DNA from: Cognatundibacterium curvum
Lineage (GTDB): Bacteria > Pseudomonadota > Gammaproteobacteria > Burkholderiales > Burkholderiaceae_D
Assembly (NCBI RefSeq): GCF_014284235.1
Contig: NZ_JACOGD010000002.1
Location: 558,001 to 622,000, forward strand
Direction of reading: 5' to 3'
DNA length: 64,000 nucleotides
Shown: positions 39,582 through 61,069 of the stretch, one piece after another
Position numbering within the stretch: the stretch's first letter is position 1
Layout of the letters: each line of letters starts with the position of its first letter
Translations under genes and position numbers: made by a program
The notes under the pieces: model-generated
What the model saw: the letters and a program-made list of their open reading frames with translations, nothing else
Told to the model about the DNA's origin: nothing
Database searches by the model: none

Positions 39582-41024
39582 ATGAAGCGATATGGCGTAA
39601 CTCTGGGCTTGCTGACATTGCTGACTGCATGTGGCGGTGGCGGTGGCGGAGGCGGTGGCGGTGGTACTGATGTTGGCGGTTTGCCGTCTTCTGCATCACT
39701 GGCGAATTTGTGTGCTAACCCACGTGCGGGCAGTGCTGACCGTCAGGGCACGATGGATAATGAAAAAGCATTCCTGCGTTCTTTTGTTGATGAGACTTAT
39801 CTCTGGTACAAAGATGTACCAACGAATCTGAATCCAGCCAGCTACGCCAATCCTCAGCTGTATTTTGATGTACTGAAAACGACAGCAAAAACAGCATCGG
39901 GTGCAGCGGTAGATCAATTCCACTGGTCACAAACCACCGAATCCTATGAAGCGTCTTCCTCCGGTATTTCTCAGGATTATGGTATTCAATGGGCTTCCCA
40001 AAGTAATGTACCACCGCGTAATTGGGTGGTGGCTGAAGTTGCAGATAGTTCACCTGCTGCACTCGCCGGTGTGAAACGCGGAGACAAGCTTACTTCGGTC
40101 GATGGGATCAATTTTATTACGGATAACACGACCACAGGTATCGCGACGCTGAATGAAGGTCTGTTCCCGAGCAAATTGGCTGCTCATAAGCTGGGCTTCA
40201 ATGGCAAGGCTGAGATCAGTCTGCTGCCAGCTAATTACACGATTGCTACCGTCAAAAATGTCAAAATTATTCCTACAGCCAAAGGCAATGTGGGTTACTT
40301 TATTTTTGATACACATATCGCGAAATCTGAAAATGAGTTGATCGCTGCCATCAATACACTGAAAAATGCCGGTGTACAGGATCTGGTCATCGATCTGCGC
40401 TATAACGGTGGCGGTTTGCTATATATCGCAAGTCAGTTGTCATACATGATTGCAGGCCAGGCTCAGACTGGAGGTAAGATATTTGAACTGTTGAGCTATA
40501 ACGATAAGCTGACTGCGAAAAACCAGAAATACCCTTTCTACGATACCACGACTACGAATGCAGGCTTGCCGACACTGGGGCTGAAGCATGTGTCTTTGCT
40601 GGTCAGTCATGGAACGGCCTCTGCGAGTGAATCGATTATCAATGGTTTGCGCGGCGCAGATGTGGCCGTGGATCTGATCGGTGATGTCACGCGTGGCAAA
40701 CCATATGGTTTCGTTCCTCAATCAAATTGCGGTTACACCTATTTCACGATTCAGTTCAAGGGTGTCAATAACAAGGGATTCGGCGATTACGCGGATGGTT
40801 TTGCGCCGACCTGTAAAGCATCAGATGACTTTACAAAGTTGCGCGGTGATGTGGCTGAAGGAATGTTACAGACTGCCCTCAGTTATCGTCAAAATGGCAC
40901 TTGTCCTGTGCTCGCAACTACCCAGAATGGTGTGCGTTCTGTGCCGGTACTGGATCAGCCGTATGAGTTGATACGTCCAGCCAGCCAGGAAATGCGTATC
41001 GTGACACCTATGCCGCGTTCATAA
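39582..41024 (+). CDS. S41-family (C-terminal processing-like) peptidase lipoprotein
   Basis: 480 aa. Signal peptide with lipobox LTAC (Cys17), then eleven consecutive glycines (18-28) as a flexible tether. A PDZ-like region (about 140-215, with WVVAEVADSSPAALAGVKRGD) is followed by an S41 catalytic domain. Seen: LVIDLRYNGGG, the serine motif VSHGTASASESIING (first Ser of SASE at 347), and the downstream lysine in GDVTRGKPYGF. The tail has CGYTYFTIQF and several cysteines that may form disulfides. It is likely an outer-membrane-anchored periplasmic protease. Its stop overlaps the next gene by one base. Confidence 0.88.
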   Translation: MKRYGVTLGLLTLLTACGGGGGGGGGGGTDVGGLPSSASLANLCANPRAGSADRQGTMDNEKAFLRSFVDETYLWYKDVPTNLNPASYANPQLYFDVLKTTAKTASGAAVDQFHWSQTTESYEASSSGISQDYGIQWASQSNVPPRNWVVAEVADSSPAALAGVKRGDKLTSVDGINFITDNTTTGIATLNEGLFPSKLAAHKLGFNGKAEISLLPANYTIATVKNVKIIPTAKGNVGYFIFDTHIAKSENELIAAINTLKNAGVQDLVIDLRYNGGGLLYIASQLSYMIAGQAQTGGKIFELLSYNDKLTAKNQKYPFYDTTTTNAGLPTLGLKHVSLLVSHGTASASESIINGLRGADVAVDLIGDVTRGKPYGFVPQSNCGYTYFTIQFKGVNNKGFGDYADGFAPTCKASDDFTKLRGDVAEGMLQTALSYRQNGTCPVLATTQNGVRSVPVLDQPYELIRPASQEMRIVTPMPRS

Positions 41025-42019: not shown

Positions 42020-42829
42020 TCAGATGGTTTTTCGATTTACCATTACTGGTTTGCACGCAGGTCTTGCGGTATTCAAAATAGGGTGTGCGCTGGTCTCGCT
42101 ATCAGGATTCCAGGCCGGTGCTTCTATGCCTTCAAACACGTGTTTTAATTGCTCGCCCCAGCGATCCCGTATCATCTGGAAATAGGTATTTTTTTCATCA
42201 ATGGTGGTGAAGCGTGTGACTTGCAGACTACCCGTTTCATACACTAGTAAGTCCAGCGGCAGGCCAACCGAGATATTCGAGCGCAAGGTCGAATCCATAG
42301 AAATCAAGGCACATTTCGCGGCATCGTCCAGGCTGGTTTCCGGATTGACGACGCGATCAATAATCGGCTTGCCATATTTGGCTTCGCCAATCTGGAAATA
42401 GGTATTTTCATCATGTGCTTCGATGAAATTGCCCGCTGCGTAGATTTGAAACAGGCGGCAACGCTCGCCTTGAATCTGGCCGCCAAATATCATACTGACG
42501 TTGAAGTCGATACCAAAGCCAGACAGGGACTGGGCATCACGCTCATGCACACGTTTAACTGTTTCGCCGAGTATTCTGGCCGCTTCATACATATTTGGCG
42601 TGTTCCAAATAGTATGACCATTGGCATCTTCGTACTCAGAAAGCAGTTCGCGTACTGATTGCGAAATCGACAGATTACCGGCTGTCATCAGCACCATCAT
42701 GCGTTCGCCAGGTGTTTCAAAAACAGACATTTTGCGGAAGGTGCCGATATGATCGACACCCGCATTGGTTCTGGAGTCGGATAAAAACACCAGCCCGGCA
42801 TTGAGGCGCATGCCCACACAGTAAGTCAT
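42020..42829 (-). CDS. Anbu: proteasome-type beta-subunit-like peptidase
   Basis: A 269-aa Ntn-hydrolase of the Anbu (ancestral beta subunit) family, related to HslV and the 20S proteasome. The catalytic Thr2 follows the initiator methionine: MTYCVGMRLNAGLVFLSD, then RTNAGVDHIGTFRKM with the conserved Asp and Lys. The middle has MVLMTAGNLSISQSV and SMIFGGQIQGE. It is last of a four-gene set with ATP-grasp, alpha-E and transglutaminase-like genes. A helical ring assembly and a role in degrading a tagged product are family-level proposals; no unfoldase gene is nearby. It lies 177 bases after the transglutaminase gene. Confidence 0.93.
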   Translation of the reverse strand: MTYCVGMRLNAGLVFLSDSRTNAGVDHIGTFRKMSVFETPGERMMVLMTAGNLSISQSVRELLSEYEDANGHTIWNTPNMYEAARILGETVKRVHERDAQSLSGFGIDFNVSMIFGGQIQGERCRLFQIYAAGNFIEAHDENTYFQIGEAKYGKPIIDRVVNPETSLDDAAKCALISMDSTLRSNISVGLPLDLLVYETGSLQVTRFTTIDEKNTYFQMIRDRWGEQLKHVFEGIEAPAWNPDSETSAHPILNTARPACKPVMVNRKTI

Positions 42830-43006
42830 AGTTACGAAGCTAATCTGAAAAGAAACCGATTTTAACTCAAGCCAGTCCTGTGGCTGCCAATATTTAATGC
42901 AGTTGTAATAGAGATACCGTACCCGAAAAACCAGGTGCTATTTATAGGCAGCAGTTCAGTGACGGCTGAGTGGCAGAGCTGGTTAGTCACTGCCTGCCGG
43001 GCAAGG

Positions 43007-43828
43007 CTACCAGGCGCCGGCAGTAATGTGGGTCTGCACACTCACACTGACCGACATGCTCTCATTGCCACCGCCACGCCTGACGCCACGTACCGGTGAG
43101 GCGGATTCATAATCGCGACCTATCGCAAGACGACAGTAGGCATCATTCATCAGCCTGGCATGCGTCACATCGATACTGACCCAACCTGTGTAATCATGCT
43201 GCTCCACCCAGACATCAATCCAGGCATGACTTTCTGCGTGATCGCTGGACTCAGGATCGATATAGCCTGAAACATAGCGCGCAGGTATTCCCTGGACGTG
43301 GCAGCAAGCCAGGAAAATATGTGCATGATCCTGGCACACGCCGCTGCCCTGAGCCAGTGCCTCGCTGGCGGTGCTGGTCACGATGGTGCTTCCAGACAAG
43401 TAGCTGACGCGGTTTTGAATGGCGCTGGCCAGTTGCAGTGCCTGTTGCGTGTTACAGTGTTCAGCTGGCAGCTTGCCGCGTGCGAAATCCAGCAGGTGCT
43501 CACTGGCTGCCGTTAGCCGGCTTGGCACTGTAAAGATCAAAGGCGACAGTTCTGCGTGATCTGCAATCCTGCCCTGCAAAGGGGTACTGACTTCCACCAC
43601 GCCTTGCGCCACGATGTTGATGTCGGTGTGCGCGCCTGTCACTACCAGTAATTCAGACAGATTGTGATAAGCATCCTGAAATGCCTGGCGTTTGCCCGGG
43701 CTGTTGATTTCCCAATGCACAATTTTCTGCTGCGCTTCCAGTCTGGGGCGCAGCCGCAACTGCTGTATCGTATAGCCGGAAGGCGACGAGTAATGGTAAG
43801 TAGTACGGTGTTGGATGGCGAGTTGCAT
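43007..43828 (-). CDS. Transglutaminase-like cysteine protease family protein
   Basis: 273 aa. N-terminal bacterial transglutaminase-associated beta domain (QLAIQHRTTYHYSSP; QQLRLRPR), then the catalytic core. Cys-His-Asp triad positions are seen in QGSGVCQDHAHIF, ESHAWIDVWV and GWVSIDVTHARL. It may cleave or form amide bonds in a small peptide product. It lies 17 bases after the alpha-E gene in the Anbu set. Cytosolic, no signal peptide. Confidence 0.9.
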   Translation of the reverse strand: MQLAIQHRTTYHYSSPSGYTIQQLRLRPRLEAQQKIVHWEINSPGKRQAFQDAYHNLSELLVVTGAHTDINIVAQGVVEVSTPLQGRIADHAELSPLIFTVPSRLTAASEHLLDFARGKLPAEHCNTQQALQLASAIQNRVSYLSGSTIVTSTASEALAQGSGVCQDHAHIFLACCHVQGIPARYVSGYIDPESSDHAESHAWIDVWVEQHDYTGWVSIDVTHARLMNDAYCRLAIGRDYESASPVRGVRRGGGNESMSVSVSVQTHITAGAW

Positions 43829-43845
43829 GCGCTAGTATCCGGTCA

Positions 43846-44793
43846 TCAGACGGTGGGAACCAGAAAATCACGGCTGATCCGGTTTCCGAGTTCAAAAATA
43901 CGTTCTAAAAAAGTCGTCAGCGTGGCATGAAGTCCTGTTTGCAGGATATCTTCGATATTCGCGAATTTCAAATCAGCATGTAGTTTTCCGGCAAATTTTT
44001 CGGTATCGAGCGAAGCATCGTTACGGATTTCAGCCAGACTGGCAATGACTTCATCCATGCAGGCGAGCAGGGAACGTGGCATATCGGGACGTAACATCAG
44101 CAATTCAGCGACGCGCTCAGGTGTAATTACATCGCGATACACCTTACGGTAAATTTCGAAGCCAGATACTGAGCGCAGCAGCGCCGCCCAGTAGTAAAAA
44201 TCTCTTTGCATGGGATCGATGCCAGCCACTGAATCTTTGCTTGCGTGGAATTTGACATCAAGAATACGCGCCGTATTGTCTGCCCGTTCCAGGAAAGTAC
44301 CGAGGCGCAGAAAACTCACTGCCTCATCGCGCAACATAGTGCCTACAATGACGCCGCGCGATAAATGCGAGCGAAACTTTACCCATTCAAAAAACTGACT
44401 GGGATCTTTTTCCAGGCTGCCGCGCGCCAGCTTATCCTGCATAGACAGCCAGGTCGCATTCTGGGTTTCCCAGACCTCGGTTGTTAAGGTGCCACGCACA
44501 GCACGTGCATTTTCGCGTGCTTCATTCAGGCAGGCTGCGATCGAGGAGGGGTTCATCGGGTCACGCACCATGAAATCGAGCACATCACGCTTGCTCAATA
44601 ATCCATATTGATGATCGAAGGCTTCTTGTAATTCTGAGATACCCAACATGGCACGCCAGCCTTGCTCTGCATCTTGCGCGCTTTGTGGCAGCATGGAAGT
44701 CTGGATATTCACATCCAGCATCCTTGCGGTATTTTCTGCACGTTCAGTGTAACGGGCCATCCAGAATAAGTGATCGGCGGTACGGCTCAGCAT
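43846..44793 (-). CDS. Alpha-E domain protein
   Basis: A 315-aa all-helical protein starting MLSRTADHLFWMARYTERAE, the alpha-E family signature, followed by TARMLDVN and repeated helical segments including RADNTARILDVKFHA and LLACMDEVIASLAEI. The biochemical role is unknown. It almost always neighbours a circularly permuted ATP-grasp gene and is thought to act with it. It lies 12 bases after that gene. Confidence 0.92.
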   Translation of the reverse strand: MLSRTADHLFWMARYTERAENTARMLDVNIQTSMLPQSAQDAEQGWRAMLGISELQEAFDHQYGLLSKRDVLDFMVRDPMNPSSIAACLNEARENARAVRGTLTTEVWETQNATWLSMQDKLARGSLEKDPSQFFEWVKFRSHLSRGVIVGTMLRDEAVSFLRLGTFLERADNTARILDVKFHASKDSVAGIDPMQRDFYYWAALLRSVSGFEIYRKVYRDVITPERVAELLMLRPDMPRSLLACMDEVIASLAEIRNDASLDTEKFAGKLHADLKFANIEDILQTGLHATLTTFLERIFELGNRISRDFLVPTV

Positions 44794-44805
44794 TCTTTTC
44801 TCCCT

Positions 44806-46230
44806 TTATTTTTCCAGTACCCAGGTATCTTTGGTTCCGCCGCCCTGCGAGGAATTGACCACCAGCGAACCCTCTTGCAAGGCAACCCGGGTCAGACCAC
44901 CCGGTACCATGGAAATCTGTTTTCCGGAAAGCACAAACGGGCGTAAATCGATATGGCGTGGTGCAATGCCCTGATCAACAAAGGTCGGGCAGGCAGACAG
45001 AGCCAGGGTAGGTTGTGCGATATAGGATTCTGGTTTTGCCAGTATGCGCTGCCGGAAATCTTCTATCTGTTGCTGACTGGACGCTGGGCCGACTAACATG
45101 CCATAGCCACCTGCGCCGTGCACTTCTTTGACCACCAACTGCGGCAGATTTGCCAGCGTATAGGACAGGTCGGCAGGTTTACGGCACTGATAAGTCGGCA
45201 CATTGTTGAGGATGGCGTCTTCGGATAAATAAAAACGTATCATGTCCGGTACGAAAGGATAGATCGATTTGTCATCCGCCACGCCGGTACCTATCGCATT
45301 GGCCAGACTGACGCGGCCAGCACGATACACCGCCAGCAAGCCCGGCACGCCTAGTGAGGAATCTGCGCGGAAGGCCAAAGGATCAAGAAAATCATCATCG
45401 ACGCGGCGGTAAATCACATCTACCCGCTTAGGCCCGCGAGTGGTGCGCATATACACAGCGTTATCATTGACGAATAAATCCTGCCCCTCCACCAGTTCCA
45501 CACCCATTTGCTGAGCCAGGAAAGCATGCTCAAAGTAAGCGGAGTTATACATGCCAGGCGTCATGACGACTACTGTCGGATCATCGACGCCAGTTGGCGC
45601 GACTGAGCGCAGATTGTCAAGCAGCATGTCCGGATAATGGTCGACAGGAGCGACCTTGTTCTGCGCAAACAGCTCAGGAAACAGGCGCATCATCATCTTG
45701 CGGTCTTCCAGCATGTAAGACACACCGGATGGCACGCGCAGATTATCTTCGAGTACATAGAACTCGCCTTCACCGGCGCGTACTATGTCTACCCCGGCAA
45801 TATGCGCATAGATGTCCGATGCGACTTTAATGCCTTGCATTTCGGGCCGGTATTGCGCATTTTTATAAATCTGCTCGGCAGGAATCACGCCCGCTTTGAT
45901 AATGCGTTGTTCATGATAGATGTCATGAATAAACATATTCAAAGCCTGCACACGTTGCGCCAGACCGCGTTGCAGATGACTCCATTCATGTGCGGGGATC
46001 ACCCTTGGGATGATGTCGAAAGGAATTAAACGCTCGGTACCGGCATCATCACCATAGACCGCAAATGTAATACCGACCCGACGGAAACTCAGATCTGCCT
46101 CGGCGCGCTGGCGTTGCAGATGTTCCCCTGTTTGTTCAGCCAGCCATTGCGCATAGCGCTGATAATGTTCTCTGGTGGATGCTGGGGAATTGTCATCTCC
46201 GGCATGCATCTCATTATAAAATCTGGCCAT
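44806..46230 (-). CDS. Circularly permuted type 2 ATP-grasp protein
   Basis: A 474-aa predicted amide-bond ligase. The start is the ATG giving [13 protein letters not shown], preceded by GGGGAG; an in-frame TTG five codons earlier lies over that site. Seen: [20 protein letters not shown] in pieces, VYVL-type strand [22 protein letters not shown] in pieces, [25 protein letters not shown] in pieces, [16 protein letters not shown] (glycine-rich ATP loop) and [17 protein letters not shown] at the C-terminus. The permuted order of ATP-grasp lobes is a family property. It is first of the Anbu set and probably makes a peptide or attaches one to a target. Confidence 0.92.
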   Translation of the reverse strand: [474 protein letters not shown]

Positions 46231-46297
46231 TTTTTCTCCCCACAAAGACGCGTTAAACGCACTATATCAAGAAGCATGCCAGTTGTGGTATGCAGAC

Positions 46298-48334
46298 TCA
46301 GGGGCGGCGGATATGGTCGACCAAATCTGTTGTTTGCCGGTCCGGTGCCGGGGTCAGTAAGCTCACGATGATCATCATTAAAATACCGAAAGGCACACCA
46401 AAAATCCCGGCTGATATAGAAGCAATGTTTCCCCACTGTAATGCTGGATTGCCGCCAAACAGAGGGTGGGTGTACATCATATAAAAAATGCAGAGGCTGA
46501 ATCCTGCGATCATGCCCGCTACCGCGCCCTGATAATTGGCACGCTTCCAGAATATGCCCAAAACCAGTGCAGGAAACAAGGTGGAAGCTGCAACTGAGAA
46601 TGCGGCGCCTACCAGCGACAGGATGTCGGCTGGCTTGAGTGAAGCGACGTAGGCAGCTATCAGTGCCACCACCAACAAAATCAGTTTTGACATGGTCACG
46701 CGTTTTTGTGTGGACGCGCTGGGGTCGACAATTTTGTAGTAAATATCGTGCGACAGCGAATTGGAAATAGTCAGCAATAAGCCGTCTGCGGTGGACAATG
46801 CGGCCGCCAGTCCGCCTGCTGCCACCAGTGCCGACACCACGTAGGGTAAGCCTGCGATTTCCGGCGTGGCCAGTACGATGATGTCGCCATCCATCACAAT
46901 TTCTGCGAGTTGTACGATGCCATCCCGATTGACGTCGATGATGCTGACCAAAGGATTGAGCTTATCTATATTCGCCCAGTAAGTAACCCAGGATGGCAGC
47001 TTGGAAAATTCGCTGCCAACCAGAGAAGTATAAATATCATACTTGACCAAGATCGCGAGCGCCGGAATCGTAATGTAGAGCAGCATGATGAAGAACAGTG
47101 ACCAGAATACAGAGTCGCGTGCTTCAGTTACTGAGGGTGTGGTGTAATAGCGCGTCAGTACATGGGGCAGGGCGGCCGTCCCCATCATCAGACACAAGAC
47201 CAGCGCCATGAAATTATTACGTTTGCTGTCGGATTCTTTCTGGTCTTTGGCCGCATAGGGCGTGTACTGCGCATACCCCGCTTGCGACTTGCTGAGTAAG
47301 GCGTTGCGTGCATCCTGCCATTGCTGACGTGCTTCGGTTTCTGATTTTGGATAGCGGGCCAGATTTTTACTCGCAGTTTTAATTTCTATCAGCGATCCAT
47401 TGCCACTCTTGAGTTCATCCAGTCGACGCTGCAATTCGTCACGTCCAGCCAGCCAGGAGGCAGGCAATTGTTCGATCTGGCGTTGTAATACATCGGCGCG
47501 CTGGCGGTAGATAGTGCGCACCTGTTGTTCTTTGTCGCTGTGTGCAAATTCCTGTTCTTTGTTGACCAGTTTTTTCAGAAACTCGCCATACGAAATTTGT
47601 GGTACCGGATTATCTGCATGTTTGAGTGACAGCCAGCTGACCGGTATCATGAAGGCCACGATAATGATGATGTATTGCGCTACCTGGGTCCAGGTAATTG
47701 CACGCATCCCGCCCAGAAACGAACAGACCAGAATACTGGCCAGGCCGAGAAAAATCCCTACCGAAAAATCGACACCGGTAAAGCGTGAGGTAATCAGCCC
47801 CACGCCGTAAATCTGCGCGACTACATAAATAAATGAAATGAAGACCGTAGCTGAAACAGCCAGGATGCGGACCAGATTATTGTTTTGTGGCCCGGCAAAG
47901 CGTGTTCCTAAAAAATCCGCGATAGTGTACTGGCCGAACTTGCGAATATAGGGTGCGATCAGCATGGCGACTAAACAGAAACCGCCGGTCCAGCCTATGA
48001 TGTAGGCCAGGCCATCAAAGCCCTGCAGGAATAAACCACCGGCCAGACTCAGAAAACTTGCGGCAGACAGCCAGTCGGCAGCGGTGGCCATCCCATTAAA
48101 GACTGCCGGTACCCGCCGTCCCGCCACATAGTATTCCGTGATATCCGATGTTCTGCTCACCAGTCCGATACCGGCATAAATCACGATGGTGGCAAACATG
48201 AACAGATAGCCTATCCAGGTACGAGGCACACCTTCTTTTTCAAGAATAGAAAGACTGATCAGGAAAACCAGAAATAAGAGGGTGTACCACAGATAGTAGA
48301 GTGTCAGTTTTTGGGTAAATTTTCCGGGGACCAT
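46298..48334 (-). CDS. Sodium:solute symporter (VC_2705/ActP-like) with charged insert and EF-hand-like loop
   Basis: 678 aa from the ATG giving MVPGKFTQKLTLYYLW, four bases after the DUF4212 stop. About 13 membrane helices of the SSS family; SSS signatures include ITEYYVAGRRVPAVFNGMA in pieces and GLAAALSTADGLLL. Two additions stand out. A highly charged soluble insert of about 125 residues (roughly 245-370) contains long helices. A loop at 467-478, DVNRDGIVQLAE, matches the 12-residue calcium-binding EF-hand pattern. It works with the small DUF4212 subunit. The substrate is probably a short carboxylate such as acetate, but this is inferred from relatives. Confidence 0.9.
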   Translation of the reverse strand: MVPGKFTQKLTLYYLWYTLLFLVFLISLSILEKEGVPRTWIGYLFMFATIVIYAGIGLVSRTSDITEYYVAGRRVPAVFNGMATAADWLSAASFLSLAGGLFLQGFDGLAYIIGWTGGFCLVAMLIAPYIRKFGQYTIADFLGTRFAGPQNNNLVRILAVSATVFISFIYVVAQIYGVGLITSRFTGVDFSVGIFLGLASILVCSFLGGMRAITWTQVAQYIIIIVAFMIPVSWLSLKHADNPVPQISYGEFLKKLVNKEQEFAHSDKEQQVRTIYRQRADVLQRQIEQLPASWLAGRDELQRRLDELKSGNGSLIEIKTASKNLARYPKSETEARQQWQDARNALLSKSQAGYAQYTPYAAKDQKESDSKRNNFMALVLCLMMGTAALPHVLTRYYTTPSVTEARDSVFWSLFFIMLLYITIPALAILVKYDIYTSLVGSEFSKLPSWVTYWANIDKLNPLVSIIDVNRDGIVQLAEIVMDGDIIVLATPEIAGLPYVVSALVAAGGLAAALSTADGLLLTISNSLSHDIYYKIVDPSASTQKRVTMSKLILLVVALIAAYVASLKPADILSLVGAAFSVAASTLFPALVLGIFWKRANYQGAVAGMIAGFSLCIFYMMYTHPLFGGNPALQWGNIASISAGIFGVPFGILMMIIVSLLTPAPDRQTTDLVDHIRRP

Positions 48335-48338
48335 ACAC

Positions 48339-48611
48339 TTAATCCTTGCCATAGCGATACGCGATCCAGCGCATGCCAACAGAATAGACCGCCAGTATCA
48401 GCACGAAACTCAGCGTCAGGCCCTGAGCCAGCATATAGAACGACAGATTCCATCCAAAAAAATCGATGGTGGCCAGCTCACGTGCGAAAAACAAGGTGCC
48501 AAACACCAGCGCTGCCCAGAAAGCCAGCAATAATACTGTCAATAGCCTGGTTTGAAGCCAGTAACGTGCTCTGGCGCTGTGCGCTGTGTGGCGAGGGTTA
48601 GCTGACATCAT
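48339..48611 (-). CDS. DUF4212 small symporter subunit
   Basis: 90 aa with two membrane helices (about 28-50 and 60-80). The pattern RYWLQTRLLTVLLLAFWAAL in pieces and FFGWNLSFYMLAQG is typical of DUF4212 proteins, which accompany VC_2705-type sodium symporters. It overlaps the sensor kinase gene by about 11-14 bases (two adjacent ATGs) and precedes the symporter by 4 bases. Confidence 0.9.
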   Translation of the reverse strand: MMSANPRHTAHSARARYWLQTRLLTVLLLAFWAALVFGTLFFARELATIDFFGWNLSFYMLAQGLTLSFVLILAVYSVGMRWIAYRYGKD

Positions 48612-50118
48612 CGATCAGATTCTGTGCATGGTTGAGTGGGAATTCTATGCGGAACAGACAGCCAGGAAAGCCAGGGGCTGTGCTGTCAGTCGCATCGCGT
48701 ATGCTCACTGTCGCCGCATGCTGCTGCGCGATTTCCCTGACGATAGCCAGTCCTAGCCCACTACCTTGTACATTACTCCCGAGGATACGGTAGAAACGTT
48801 CAAAGACATGCTCGCGCTCTGTTGCCGGGATGCCGGGCCCATGGTCTTCCACTTCCAGTACTGCCAGTGCCTGGCTGGCATCGATATCAACCCTGACTGT
48901 CACGCTCTTTCCCGATGGCGTATAACGGATCGCATTGTCGATCAGATTGCTCAGCATTTCCCTGAGCATGAGTGGGTTACCGAAAATCTGTACCGCTTGT
49001 TCACATTGTTCAAAACCCAGATCGATCTTTTTATTAAAGGAAGCCGGTATCCATTCACGCACGACCTGCATTGCAAACTCATTCAGATTCAGCGGTTCCA
49101 GCATCTGTACGGCCGGGCTTTGATTTTCTGCTTTAGCCAGTGCCAGCAATTGATTAATCAGGCGGGTTGCCGCTTCTGAACTGGTTGAGAGTTGTAGTAA
49201 GGAGCGGTGAATTTCTTCCTGATCGGTTTGTCGTAAAGCGAGTTCAGATTGCATGCGCATCCCGGCCAGCGGTGTTTTCATCTGATGCGCCGCGTCAGCG
49301 ATAAAGCGCTTTTGTATCGCGATGGTTTGCGCCAGCCTTTCCAGCATTTCGTTGAGTGAGGCAACCAGTGGCGTGATCTCTTCCGGCACATGGTGCGAAT
49401 CGATAGGGCTCAGATCATCCGGCCGGCGTGCGCGTATGCGTTGCTGCAGCTCTGCCAGCGGCGAAAGTCCGCGACTCAGTGCAAACCAGACCAGTGCAAG
49501 TGCGATCGGCAAAATTATAAACTGTGGCAGTACCACGCCTTTGATGATTTCGTTGGCCAGTACCGCACGTTTTTCCAAACCCTCTGCGACTTGTATCAGG
49601 ATCAGTTTGTTTTGATTGACGGGTGTTGTTTTGATCAGGTCGACATAAGCATACGCGATACGCATTTCGCTGCCATGAAAGTTCAGATTGCGGAATTGTA
49701 TGGCGCCGGGCGCCGCGCGCTCTTCTTCCTGCAGCACAGGAAAATCGGTATCACCGTCTATGATGCCGCCTTCCGGCGAGCTGATTTGAAAATAAATATT
49801 GTCCAGATCATCCGCACGCAAAATATCGCGCGCCGGTTTAGAGAGTTGGGTAATGGCCTGTCCATCCAGCTCTTTGACTTGCTGCGCCAGCACCAGCACT
49901 TTGTCTTCCAGGGCGCGGTCAAAAGGCTGATTGGCGATCGATTTGGCGACCAGATAAGTAATGGCGATACTCATAGGCCACAGCAGCAGCAGCGGTGCCA
50001 GCATCCAATCCAGAATCTCACCAAATAAGGAGCGTTGTACCGCTTCATTTTCGTGAGGCAGTAGCGCGCTTACTGTCGCGTCGTGCTGATCTGGTTTGTG
50101 GCTATGCTCAGAATTCAT
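48598..50118 (-). CDS. Sensor histidine kinase (TctE/QseC-like)
   Basis: 506 aa. Two membrane helices (about 37-58 and 195-218) flank a periplasmic 2CSK_N-type sensor domain. Then HAMP-like segment, HisKA with His278 in ADAAHQMKTPLAG, N-box MLSNLIDNAIRYTP, G boxes VEDHGPGIP and GSGLGLAIVREIA. It overlaps its regulator gene by ATGA, and the symporter genes follow, so it probably senses the transported compound and controls the symporter. Confidence 0.92.
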   Translation of the reverse strand: MNSEHSHKPDQHDATVSALLPHENEAVQRSLFGEILDWMLAPLLLLWPMSIAITYLVAKSIANQPFDRALEDKVLVLAQQVKELDGQAITQLSKPARDILRADDLDNIYFQISSPEGGIIDGDTDFPVLQEEERAAPGAIQFRNLNFHGSEMRIAYAYVDLIKTTPVNQNKLILIQVAEGLEKRAVLANEIIKGVVLPQFIILPIALALVWFALSRGLSPLAELQQRIRARRPDDLSPIDSHHVPEEITPLVASLNEMLERLAQTIAIQKRFIADAAHQMKTPLAGMRMQSELALRQTDQEEIHRSLLQLSTSSEAATRLINQLLALAKAENQSPAVQMLEPLNLNEFAMQVVREWIPASFNKKIDLGFEQCEQAVQIFGNPLMLREMLSNLIDNAIRYTPSGKSVTVRVDIDASQALAVLEVEDHGPGIPATEREHVFERFYRILGSNVQGSGLGLAIVREIAQQHAATVSIRDATDSTAPGFPGCLFRIEFPLNHAQNLIDDVS

Positions 50119-50828
50119 GCGGATTCTGGCGGCTGTTCAGGGCTGCGCGCAGCCGGTGCAACATAGAATTTTTCCAGGCAATAGCCCAGGCCTCGCACGG
50201 TGGCTATCCGTACACCGTCAACTTCGATTTTCTTACGCAGCCGGTGTACATAGACTTCAATGGCATTATTGCTGACTTCCTCGCCCCATTCACATAAATG
50301 GTCGACTAACTGCTCTTTCGAGACCAGCCGTCCGGTGCGTTGCAGCAGCACTTCAAGTAATCCTAATTCACGTGCCGACAAGTCCAGCATTTGTTCATGG
50401 ATGTAGGCAATCCGGCCAACCTGGTCATAGCTGAGTGGGCCGTGTTTAATGACGGTTGGGCCGCCACCCGCACCGCGCCGCGTCAGTGCGCGTACTCTGG
50501 CCTCCAGTTCGGACAAAGCAAAAGGCTTGGCCATGTAATCATCTGCACCCAGATCCAGGCCTTTAACCCTTTGCTCGACCGAGTCGGCTGCGGTCAGTAT
50601 CAATACAGGCAGATGGGAATTTCTGGCACGCAGCCGGCGCAATACTTCGAGCCCACTCATTTTTGGCAGCCCCAGATCGAGTATCAGTAAATCAAAATCC
50701 TGAGTGGATAAGGCGGAATCCGCTTCCTGCCCGTTGCCAACGCAGTCGGTGGCATAGCCGGATTGGCGTAAGGAGCGTGTGAGGCCGTCGGCCAGCACAC
50801 TGTCGTCTTCTGCAAGCAAGATACGCAT
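50115..50828 (-). CDS. OmpR-family response regulator (TctD/QseB-like)
   Basis: 237 aa. Receiver with acidic pair at the N-terminus (LLAEDDSVL), phosphoacceptor Asp51 (LLILDLGLPK), Thr in VLILTAADS and Lys in DDYMAKPFAL. Winged-helix effector with LSARELGLLEVLLQRTGRLV and NAIEVYVHRLRKKIE. It is the first gene of the RR-HK-DUF4212-symporter unit and divergent from the GH31 gene. Confidence 0.93.
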   Translation of the reverse strand: MRILLAEDDSVLADGLTRSLRQSGYATDCVGNGQEADSALSTQDFDLLILDLGLPKMSGLEVLRRLRARNSHLPVLILTAADSVEQRVKGLDLGADDYMAKPFALSELEARVRALTRRGAGGGPTVIKHGPLSYDQVGRIAYIHEQMLDLSARELGLLEVLLQRTGRLVSKEQLVDHLCEWGEEVSNNAIEVYVHRLRKKIEVDGVRIATVRGLGYCLEKFYVAPAARSPEQPPESA

Positions 50829-61053: not shown

Positions 61054-61069
61054 TGGCACACTGTTTGCT
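61054..61069 (+). promoter_or_regulatory. Sigma-54 promoter of pilA
   Basis: TGGCAC, five bases, TTGCT. The GG and GC doublets are 10 bases apart, exactly as RpoN requires. It lies about 50 bases before the pilin start. Type IV pilin genes are classically controlled by RpoN with PilS/PilR; a GACAAATTTTGTC near-palindrome about 65 bases upstream could be the activator site. Confidence 0.88.

Follow-up and report, generated by a model that had tools for sequence, protein, structure and literature searches.

The window analysed here, a 64,000-nucleotide stretch of the Cognatundibacterium curvum genome (4.25 Mb over 57 contigs), contains a run of four genes that ends with the proteasome-like peptidase Anbu. 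The four open reading frames (ORFs) lie on the minus strand, encode an ATP-grasp ligase followed by an alpha-E protein, a transglutaminase-like enzyme and Anbu, and are separated by 12, 17 and 177 bases. The features of the locus are:

46266-46281, minus strand: sigma-54 -24/-12-like element TGGCATGCTTCTTGAT, 35 bases 5' of the ATP-grasp ATG (conserved position)
44806-46230, minus strand: circularly permuted ATP-grasp ligase, 474 amino acids, operon gene 1 (Pfam, 3n6x match, fold neighbours, signature residues)
43846-44793, minus strand: alpha-E protein, 315 amino acids, all-helical, with an internal tandem duplication (Pfam, AlphaFold model, repeat comparisons)
44722-44745, minus strand: alpha-E ER motif 1, ERAENTAR, residues 17-24 (sequence)
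44266-44289, minus strand: alpha-E ER motif 2, ERADNTAR, residues 169-176 (sequence)
43007-43828, minus strand: transglutaminase-like cysteine enzyme, 273 amino acids, Cys165-His201-Asp220 (Pfam, PDB search, alignment)
42830-43006, no strand: 177-base gap ahead of Anbu, no promoter signal detected (consensus scans, gap-length comparison)
42020-42829, minus strand: Anbu proteasome-like peptidase, 269 amino acids, Thr2/Asp18/Lys33 (Pfam, PDB search, alignment)

Pfam recognised all four proteins, with E-values of 4e-171 for CP_ATPgrasp_2, 1.5e-99 for Alpha-E, 4e-20 and 6e-18 for Transglut_core and Bact_transglu_N, and 3e-5 for Proteasome. The identity of Anbu is firmer from a search of PDB sequences, which returned 5loy (E 1.8e-91) and 5nyw (E 2.2e-79); residues 2-240 of the window protein pair with residues 1-239 of the 5loy chain, which has 240. 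The ATP-grasp protein matched 3n6x (E 2.7e-226, 755 bits) and the transglutaminase-like enzyme matched 3isr, a distant transglutaminase-like structure. NCBIfam left three of the four proteins unassigned and gave Anbu only a distant, sub-cut-off match to an archaeal beta subunit. The start of ATP-grasp is the ATG at 46230; the mechanical ORF begins further out, at a TTG at 46245. The ORF list, Pfam and the PDB searches bear out the coordinates, strand, gap lengths and family assignments given in a preliminary description of this DNA, which had also stated that comparative genomics had already shown the complete four-family grouping, with substrate and role unproven. Extracts of PMC5666114 and PMC6376114 agree with that statement (all papers are cited here from extracts). 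The locus is almost certainly a member of the known Anbu operon.

The presumed catalytic residues are preserved throughout the alignments. Anbu of the window has a Met-Thr start, and its residues T2, D18 and K33 are invariant in 20/20 aligned sequences; C165, H201 and D220 of the transglutaminase-like enzyme are conserved in 12/12. Residues E161, N163, R165, K368, G374, Y376 and G377 of ATP-grasp are invariant in 181/181 standalone proteins, a comparison from which proteins shorter than 250 amino acids or with internal stops had been dropped. The Anbu of the window ends at 269 amino acids, and most Anbu proteins listed for its own family have about 290, with a tail resembling PLQTLAQQ..KQH; no such tail could be read in any of the three forward frames after the Anbu stop (42020-42140).

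The four families were searched for in a sample of 120 genomes from the Burkholderiales. They were present together in 52 and absent together from 54, with totals of 63 for alpha-E, 62 (above the cut-off) for ATP-grasp, 60 for the N-terminal transglutaminase family and 59 for Anbu; Fisher p values on these counts ignore shared ancestry. All but one of the 59 Anbu genomes had alpha-E as well (58), and all but one of the 63 alpha-E genomes had ATP-grasp (62); Anbu was seen in 57 of the 62 genomes with ATP-grasp. Five genomes had ATP-grasp and alpha-E and no Anbu match, and one had Anbu without either. The N-terminal transglutaminase family is no specific marker of the operon, because matches were found in genomes G032 and G077, where the other three families were missing. 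In the source genome alpha-E, ATP-grasp and the N-terminal transglutaminase family were each matched once, and therefore no second cluster of the kind with a large DUF2126 transglutaminase or a fusion was seen. The preliminary description had staked its reading on co-occurrence in related genomes and on conserved catalytic residues, and both were found. A lone Anbu gene was observed at locus L101 (genome G084), in a genome with no match to ATP-grasp, alpha-E or the N-terminal transglutaminase family.

Gene order was compared at 181 ATP-grasp loci: 44 from the family of the source organism (window included), 57 from other Burkholderiales and 80 named loci from across GTDB (the best 80 of 593 confirmed). 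Of the 46 genomes of this family in which ATP-grasp was matched, counting that of the window, G127 and G175 were excluded. Matches below 40 bits were dropped, and ATP-grasp matches at or below 50% identity were classed as paralogues. These loci were selected for holding ATP-grasp and therefore measure adjacency, not presence; unnamed and named loci also overlap in species (genome G148, a member of the same genus that has the operon, is the record of locus L198), so the counts are not of independent species. Alpha-E followed ATP-grasp within 300 bases in 176/181 loci. The complete order ATP-grasp, alpha-E, transglutaminase, Anbu was present in 59/181 (21/44 in the own family, 13/57 in other Burkholderiales and 25/80 among named loci). 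Variants occurred without the small transglutaminase, without Anbu, or as a run including a large transglutaminase with a DUF2126 domain, which was detected in both of the two large proteins scanned by Pfam. In Pseudomonas loci such as L263 the core of ATP-grasp, alpha-E and transglutaminase was present, with no Anbu found inside the fetched locus, and genomes G005, G049 and G093 are examples in which Anbu is placed away from the ATP-grasp cluster. Plasmid records with relatives of ATP-grasp numbered 117, Sinorhizobium accounting for 67.

The alpha-E protein consists of two homologous halves. Profile comparison of the halves gave a probability of 98.7-98.9% across 107-146 columns, compared to at most 0.2% for reversed and column-shuffled controls, and the two halves of the window protein match each other by single-sequence BLASTP (E 1e-8). 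Among relatives, excluding proteins outside 290-380 amino acids or with internal stops, the halves matched at E<=1e-3 in 175/178, against 0/178 shuffled controls. The motif ERA(E/D)NTAR is present in each half of the window protein, and two copies were found in 154/178 relatives by a strict pattern. An AlphaFold model built with 57 sequences (mean predicted local distance difference test score, pLDDT, 91.7) contains 16 helices arranged as two matching sets of eight. Foldseek found nothing in the PDB at E<=0.001 for this model (best 0.12), and searches of PDB sequences gave no convincing relative, the three weak matches of a profile search (E 0.17-0.99) being deemed chance. No title on the tandem duplication was found in a limited literature search, and as far as checked the duplication with an unmatched predicted fold appears to be new. 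A relative of alpha-E with 35% identity was noted at MT835738.1:16860-17684, in a "Bacteriophage sp." record from human faeces that may be a bacterial contig.

The model of the ATP-grasp enzyme (pLDDT 84) has 3n6x as its first Foldseek neighbour, followed by homoglutathione and glutathione synthetases and nematode glutathione-synthetase-like effectors; further neighbours include the fungal E-64 ligase Cp1B, YgiC/YjfC, and glutathionylspermidine and trypanothione synthetases. Those of known chemistry couple a carboxylate to an amine. The E-x-N pair of the window enzyme resembles E163/N165 of Cp1B (PMC12568646), and its putative Mg/ATP-binding residues are assigned on this likeness. The ATP-grasp enzyme from the Anbu operon of Y. 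bercovieri frees phosphate from ATP (PMC6376114).

A group of 15 ATP-grasp proteins below 45% identity (L251:9368-11911, L236:427-3057 and 13 others) provided a contrast in the residue comparison. This set includes fusions of ATP-grasp to alpha-E, two of which were scanned by Pfam, and several members are cut by the end of the locus. E161 and R165 are replaced in 15/15 and N163 is changed to arginine in 15/15; in the ten paralogues that reach the C-terminal signature, K368 is kept in all ten and G374, Y376 and G377 in none. Judged by these substitutions, the degenerate paralogues are probably inactive as ligases of the same kind. As far as checked, such a degenerate paralogue appears to be new.

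Upstream of ATP-grasp a sigma-54-like element recurs at a constrained position. Sites were scored against a sigma-54 consensus, with a threshold of at least 20 out of 23.5. Within 80 bases 5' of ATP-grasp, 64/101 regions reached this score (0.9 in shuffles), whereas the same distance yielded 0/102 before alpha-E, 1/45 before the transglutaminase and 1/64 before Anbu, where 0.8 were expected from shuffles. Over a 250-base range the element was found in 82/101 regions, compared to 1/101 coding controls and 4.2 in shuffles. Named loci behaved similarly, with 50/80 within 80 bases (shuffles 0.8) and 62/80 within 200 bases (shuffles 3.7). The window's copy sits in the 67-base gap 3' of a symporter gene. 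A two-mismatch match is unremarkable alone, the window holding 119 matches at up to three mismatches, fewer than the 148 in shuffles; the element carries weight because of its position and conservation, not the match itself. Within the own family the blocks TGGCAYR-TTTC-TTG(A/T)T are retained while the flanks drift. An inverted repeat seen by eye over the -24 box of the window was deemed chance and is not visible in the relatives compared.

The own-family element usually departs from the consensus at -12. The -12 cytosine is absent from 23/33 own-family elements scoring at least 20, compared to 2/44 elsewhere, where GC is kept in 42/44. Ten named loci were taken as Oxalobacteraceae from their titles, and in eight of them the best site lacks the -12 cytosine, at a score of at least 20 in six and a lower one in two; L217 has this cytosine and L201 has no credible element. 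Genome-wide, the canonical sigma-54 pattern matched 16 times against once for a reversed control, and the TTGAW form seven times against none. Five of these seven lie within ORFs of at least 385 amino acids; the window's match overlaps only a 115-amino-acid ORF and that of L177 overlaps two ORFs, one of 144 and one of 139 amino acids. The source genome encodes sigma-54. A limited literature search found nothing on an altered -12 in the element of Anbu operons, and the position-specific conservation with a family-specific -12 change appears, as far as checked, to be new. Elsewhere in the window, a canonical sigma-54 element, TGGCACACTGTTTGCT, was observed at 61054-61069, 50 bases 5' of a type IV pilin-like ORF (61119 on).

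The preliminary description had also proposed that the 177-base gap before Anbu carries a separate promoter. This proposal is unsupported, because a consensus scan detected no sigma-70-like site inside 42830-43006, the sigma-54-like signal before Anbu is at the level of shuffles, and the transglutaminase-Anbu gap varies from 9 to 249 bases among the 21 full-order own-family loci (window included). We consider it likely that one sigma-54-type promoter ahead of ATP-grasp transcribes the operon and that its activity rises under nitrogen limitation.

Nitrogen control of Anbu operons is already in print. Expression of the B. cenocepacia genes I35_5080-83, a related cluster encoding DUF404/407, DUF403 and two transglutaminase-like proteins, fell 6-9.4 fold when ntrC was mutated (PMC5491218), which favours sigma-54/NtrC control of that cluster. 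In P. putida nitrogen limitation induces the Anbu operon, PP_2685-2688, which has been placed under NtrB/NtrC (PMC7801951, PMC3325844), and PMC5666114 also cites raised Anbu in this organism when nitrogen is limited. On regulation of Anbu apart from its neighbours two P. putida data sets disagree: an RNA-seq table lists Anbu as uninduced (1.12x) with the other three genes at 11-15x (PMC7801951), and a 2012 transcriptome has Anbu up 11.1x (PMC3325844). COG3484 is among the predicted sigma-54 targets of Proteobacteria (PMC12316311), and in marine metagenomes the domains of the operon were grouped with urea metabolism (PMC3597751). Two further papers were set aside: PMC10274813 concerns another transglutaminase homologue and PMC5748707 contains no operon terms.

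Taken together, the overall best explanation of the locus is a nitrogen-linked make-and-break amide system, to which we assign a probability of about one in two. Its starting points are the observed gene order, conserved catalytic residues, pairing of ATP-grasp with alpha-E, promoter-like element and alpha-E duplication. Somewhat more tentative is a working scheme in which ATP-grasp and alpha-E would ligate an amide conjugate and the transglutaminase-like enzyme and Anbu would process the product. Nitrogen shortage would switch the operon on. The glutathione-synthetase-like ATP-grasp enzyme, with alpha-E as a two-repeat helical partner subunit, would activate a carboxylate by forming its acyl phosphate and couple this to an amine, so that a conjugate resembling a peptide or polyamine results; the cysteine enzyme of transglutaminase type would then transfer or cleave the conjugate amide and Anbu would hydrolyse the product or its peptides, a make-and-break logic like that of glutathionylspermidine synthetase/amidase. 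The tight pairing of ATP-grasp with alpha-E and their fusion argue for one complex, and the looser linkage of the transglutaminase and Anbu argues for downstream action. We infer the substrates, the direction of flux, the physical complex and the activator protein.

Several results weigh against this explanation. Pull-downs with Anbu as bait yielded no specific partner (PMC6376114), and expression of the operon proteins is described as unchanged under various conditions (PMC5666114). In a P. putida rpoN mutant under nitrogen limitation the other three genes were still induced 14-20x and Anbu 1.45x (PMC7801951), which speaks against strict sigma-54 dependence in that organism. The Foldseek likeness to ligases besides 3n6x is at the level of the fold, with 9-15% identity, and the nematode effectors are also among the matches. 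The window's element has GG at -24, but its -12 GC reads GA, off the sigma-54 consensus, and no enrichment of NtrC boxes over shuffles was detected upstream of ATP-grasp with the one consensus applied. It is doubtful that the upstream element is the site of another regulator, or a lineage-conserved non-promoter sequence in the window's family, instead of a sigma-54 promoter: the altered -12 and the lack of NtrC-box enrichment would fit such a site, but other families usually keep GC at -12 in the same place, and within the own family the -24 and -12 blocks are retained as the flanks vary.

The proteasome-like fold of Anbu, with its intact Thr/Asp/Lys, beside two amide-forming families, together with the strong co-occurrence of all four, is also compatible with ideas that PMC6376114 credits to Iyer 2009 and to Valas and Bourne 2008, by which ATP-grasp and transglutaminase would tag proteins with a peptide and Anbu would remove the tag or degrade the tagged proteins. 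The preliminary description had leaned towards such a tag-and-degrade role. We regard this as rather unlikely. Anbu is dispensable to the set, given the five genomes with ATP-grasp and alpha-E but no Anbu match, the one with Anbu and neither of these, and the three-gene core of the Pseudomonas loci; no AAA+ unfoldase family was detected among the nine window proteins around the locus to which the Pfam scan was limited; and the extract of PMC6376114 reports no peptidase activity of Anbu on three standard substrates. A further alternative is that ATP-grasp, alpha-E and the transglutaminase form a nitrogen-regulated biosynthetic unit with which Anbu, as an independent, ATP-independent nitrogen-scavenging protease, merely shares a transcript. 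The separate placement of Anbu in some genomes, its lack of induction in one P. putida experiment and the preference of PMC5666114 for protein degradation over peptide synthesis all favour such a loose partnership, but alpha-E accompanies Anbu in all but one of the Anbu genomes and the full four-gene order recurs in about a third of the loci, making it unlikely in our judgement.

The make-and-break amide system can be extended to a fuller reading that is improbable in all its parts jointly. Nitrogen starvation would induce a committed two-protein ligase of ATP-grasp and alpha-E; alpha-E would be a new all-helical fold of two duplicated eight-helix halves, with its paired ER motifs facing the active site; a duplicated cluster in other genomes would retain an ATP-grasp::alpha-E fusion that has lost ligase activity and serves as regulator or scaffold; and in Oxalobacteraceae the sigma-54 promoter of the operon would have acquired a different -12 base that makes it less dependent on the enhancer protein.

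Anbu has solved structures and no known substrate or role, and the conserved promoter-like element, by pointing to nitrogen limitation, names a condition under which substrates may be sought. A two-protein ligase, open to testing as a complex, is suggested by the duplication in alpha-E, by its almost constant pairing with ATP-grasp and by a predicted fold without a match. The degenerate fusion paralogue is a natural contrast in learning the function of alpha-E.

Upstream of the operon on the same strand (46298-50828) lie a sodium:solute symporter, a small ORF, a sensor kinase and a response regulator, and a symporter and kinase are likewise found upstream of the operon in a U. griseum record. 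A lipoprotein-like ORF at 39582-41024 has 11 glycines directly after a lipobox-like cysteine, encoded by mixed glycine codons and not by a homopolymer. The window contains no RNA family at the gathering score and no transfer RNA detected by ARAGORN.

Compared with known systems, the locus is confirmed as an intact copy of a known, still unexplained operon. It agrees with the Anbu operon (Iyer 2009; Valas and Bourne 2008; Fuchs 2017; Piasecka 2018) in its four families and their order, with the Thr/Asp/Lys of Anbu, a circularly permuted ATP-grasp with an intact signature, the ER motif of alpha-E and a transglutaminase-like enzyme. Nothing essential differs, the shorter Anbu tail (269 versus about 290 amino acids) and the altered -12 of the element being the departures. 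The self-compartmentalising proteases 20S and HslV work with an AAA+ partner, and none was seen among the nine scanned proteins. The clusters of a large transglutaminase with DUF2126, some with an ATP-grasp::alpha-E fusion, draw on the same domain families as the window set, but the fusion paralogue lacks E161/N163/R165 and the glycine loop, which the standalone enzyme of the window keeps. B. cenocepacia I35_5080-83 has separate DUF404/407 and DUF403 proteins with two transglutaminase-like proteins, one small and one large, and is nitrogen-regulated (PMC5491218). The ATP-grasp fold of the window ligase is shared with glutathionylspermidine synthetase/amidase, Cp1B, YgiC and YjfC, and a logic of ligase plus cysteine hydrolase may be common to them. 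Glutathionylspermidine synthetase/amidase, however, is one bifunctional chain, whereas the window has separate genes in which a transglutaminase core replaces the amidase domain; with its additional alpha-E and Anbu and an identity of 9-15%, the window set is a relative in fold and not a member of that group.

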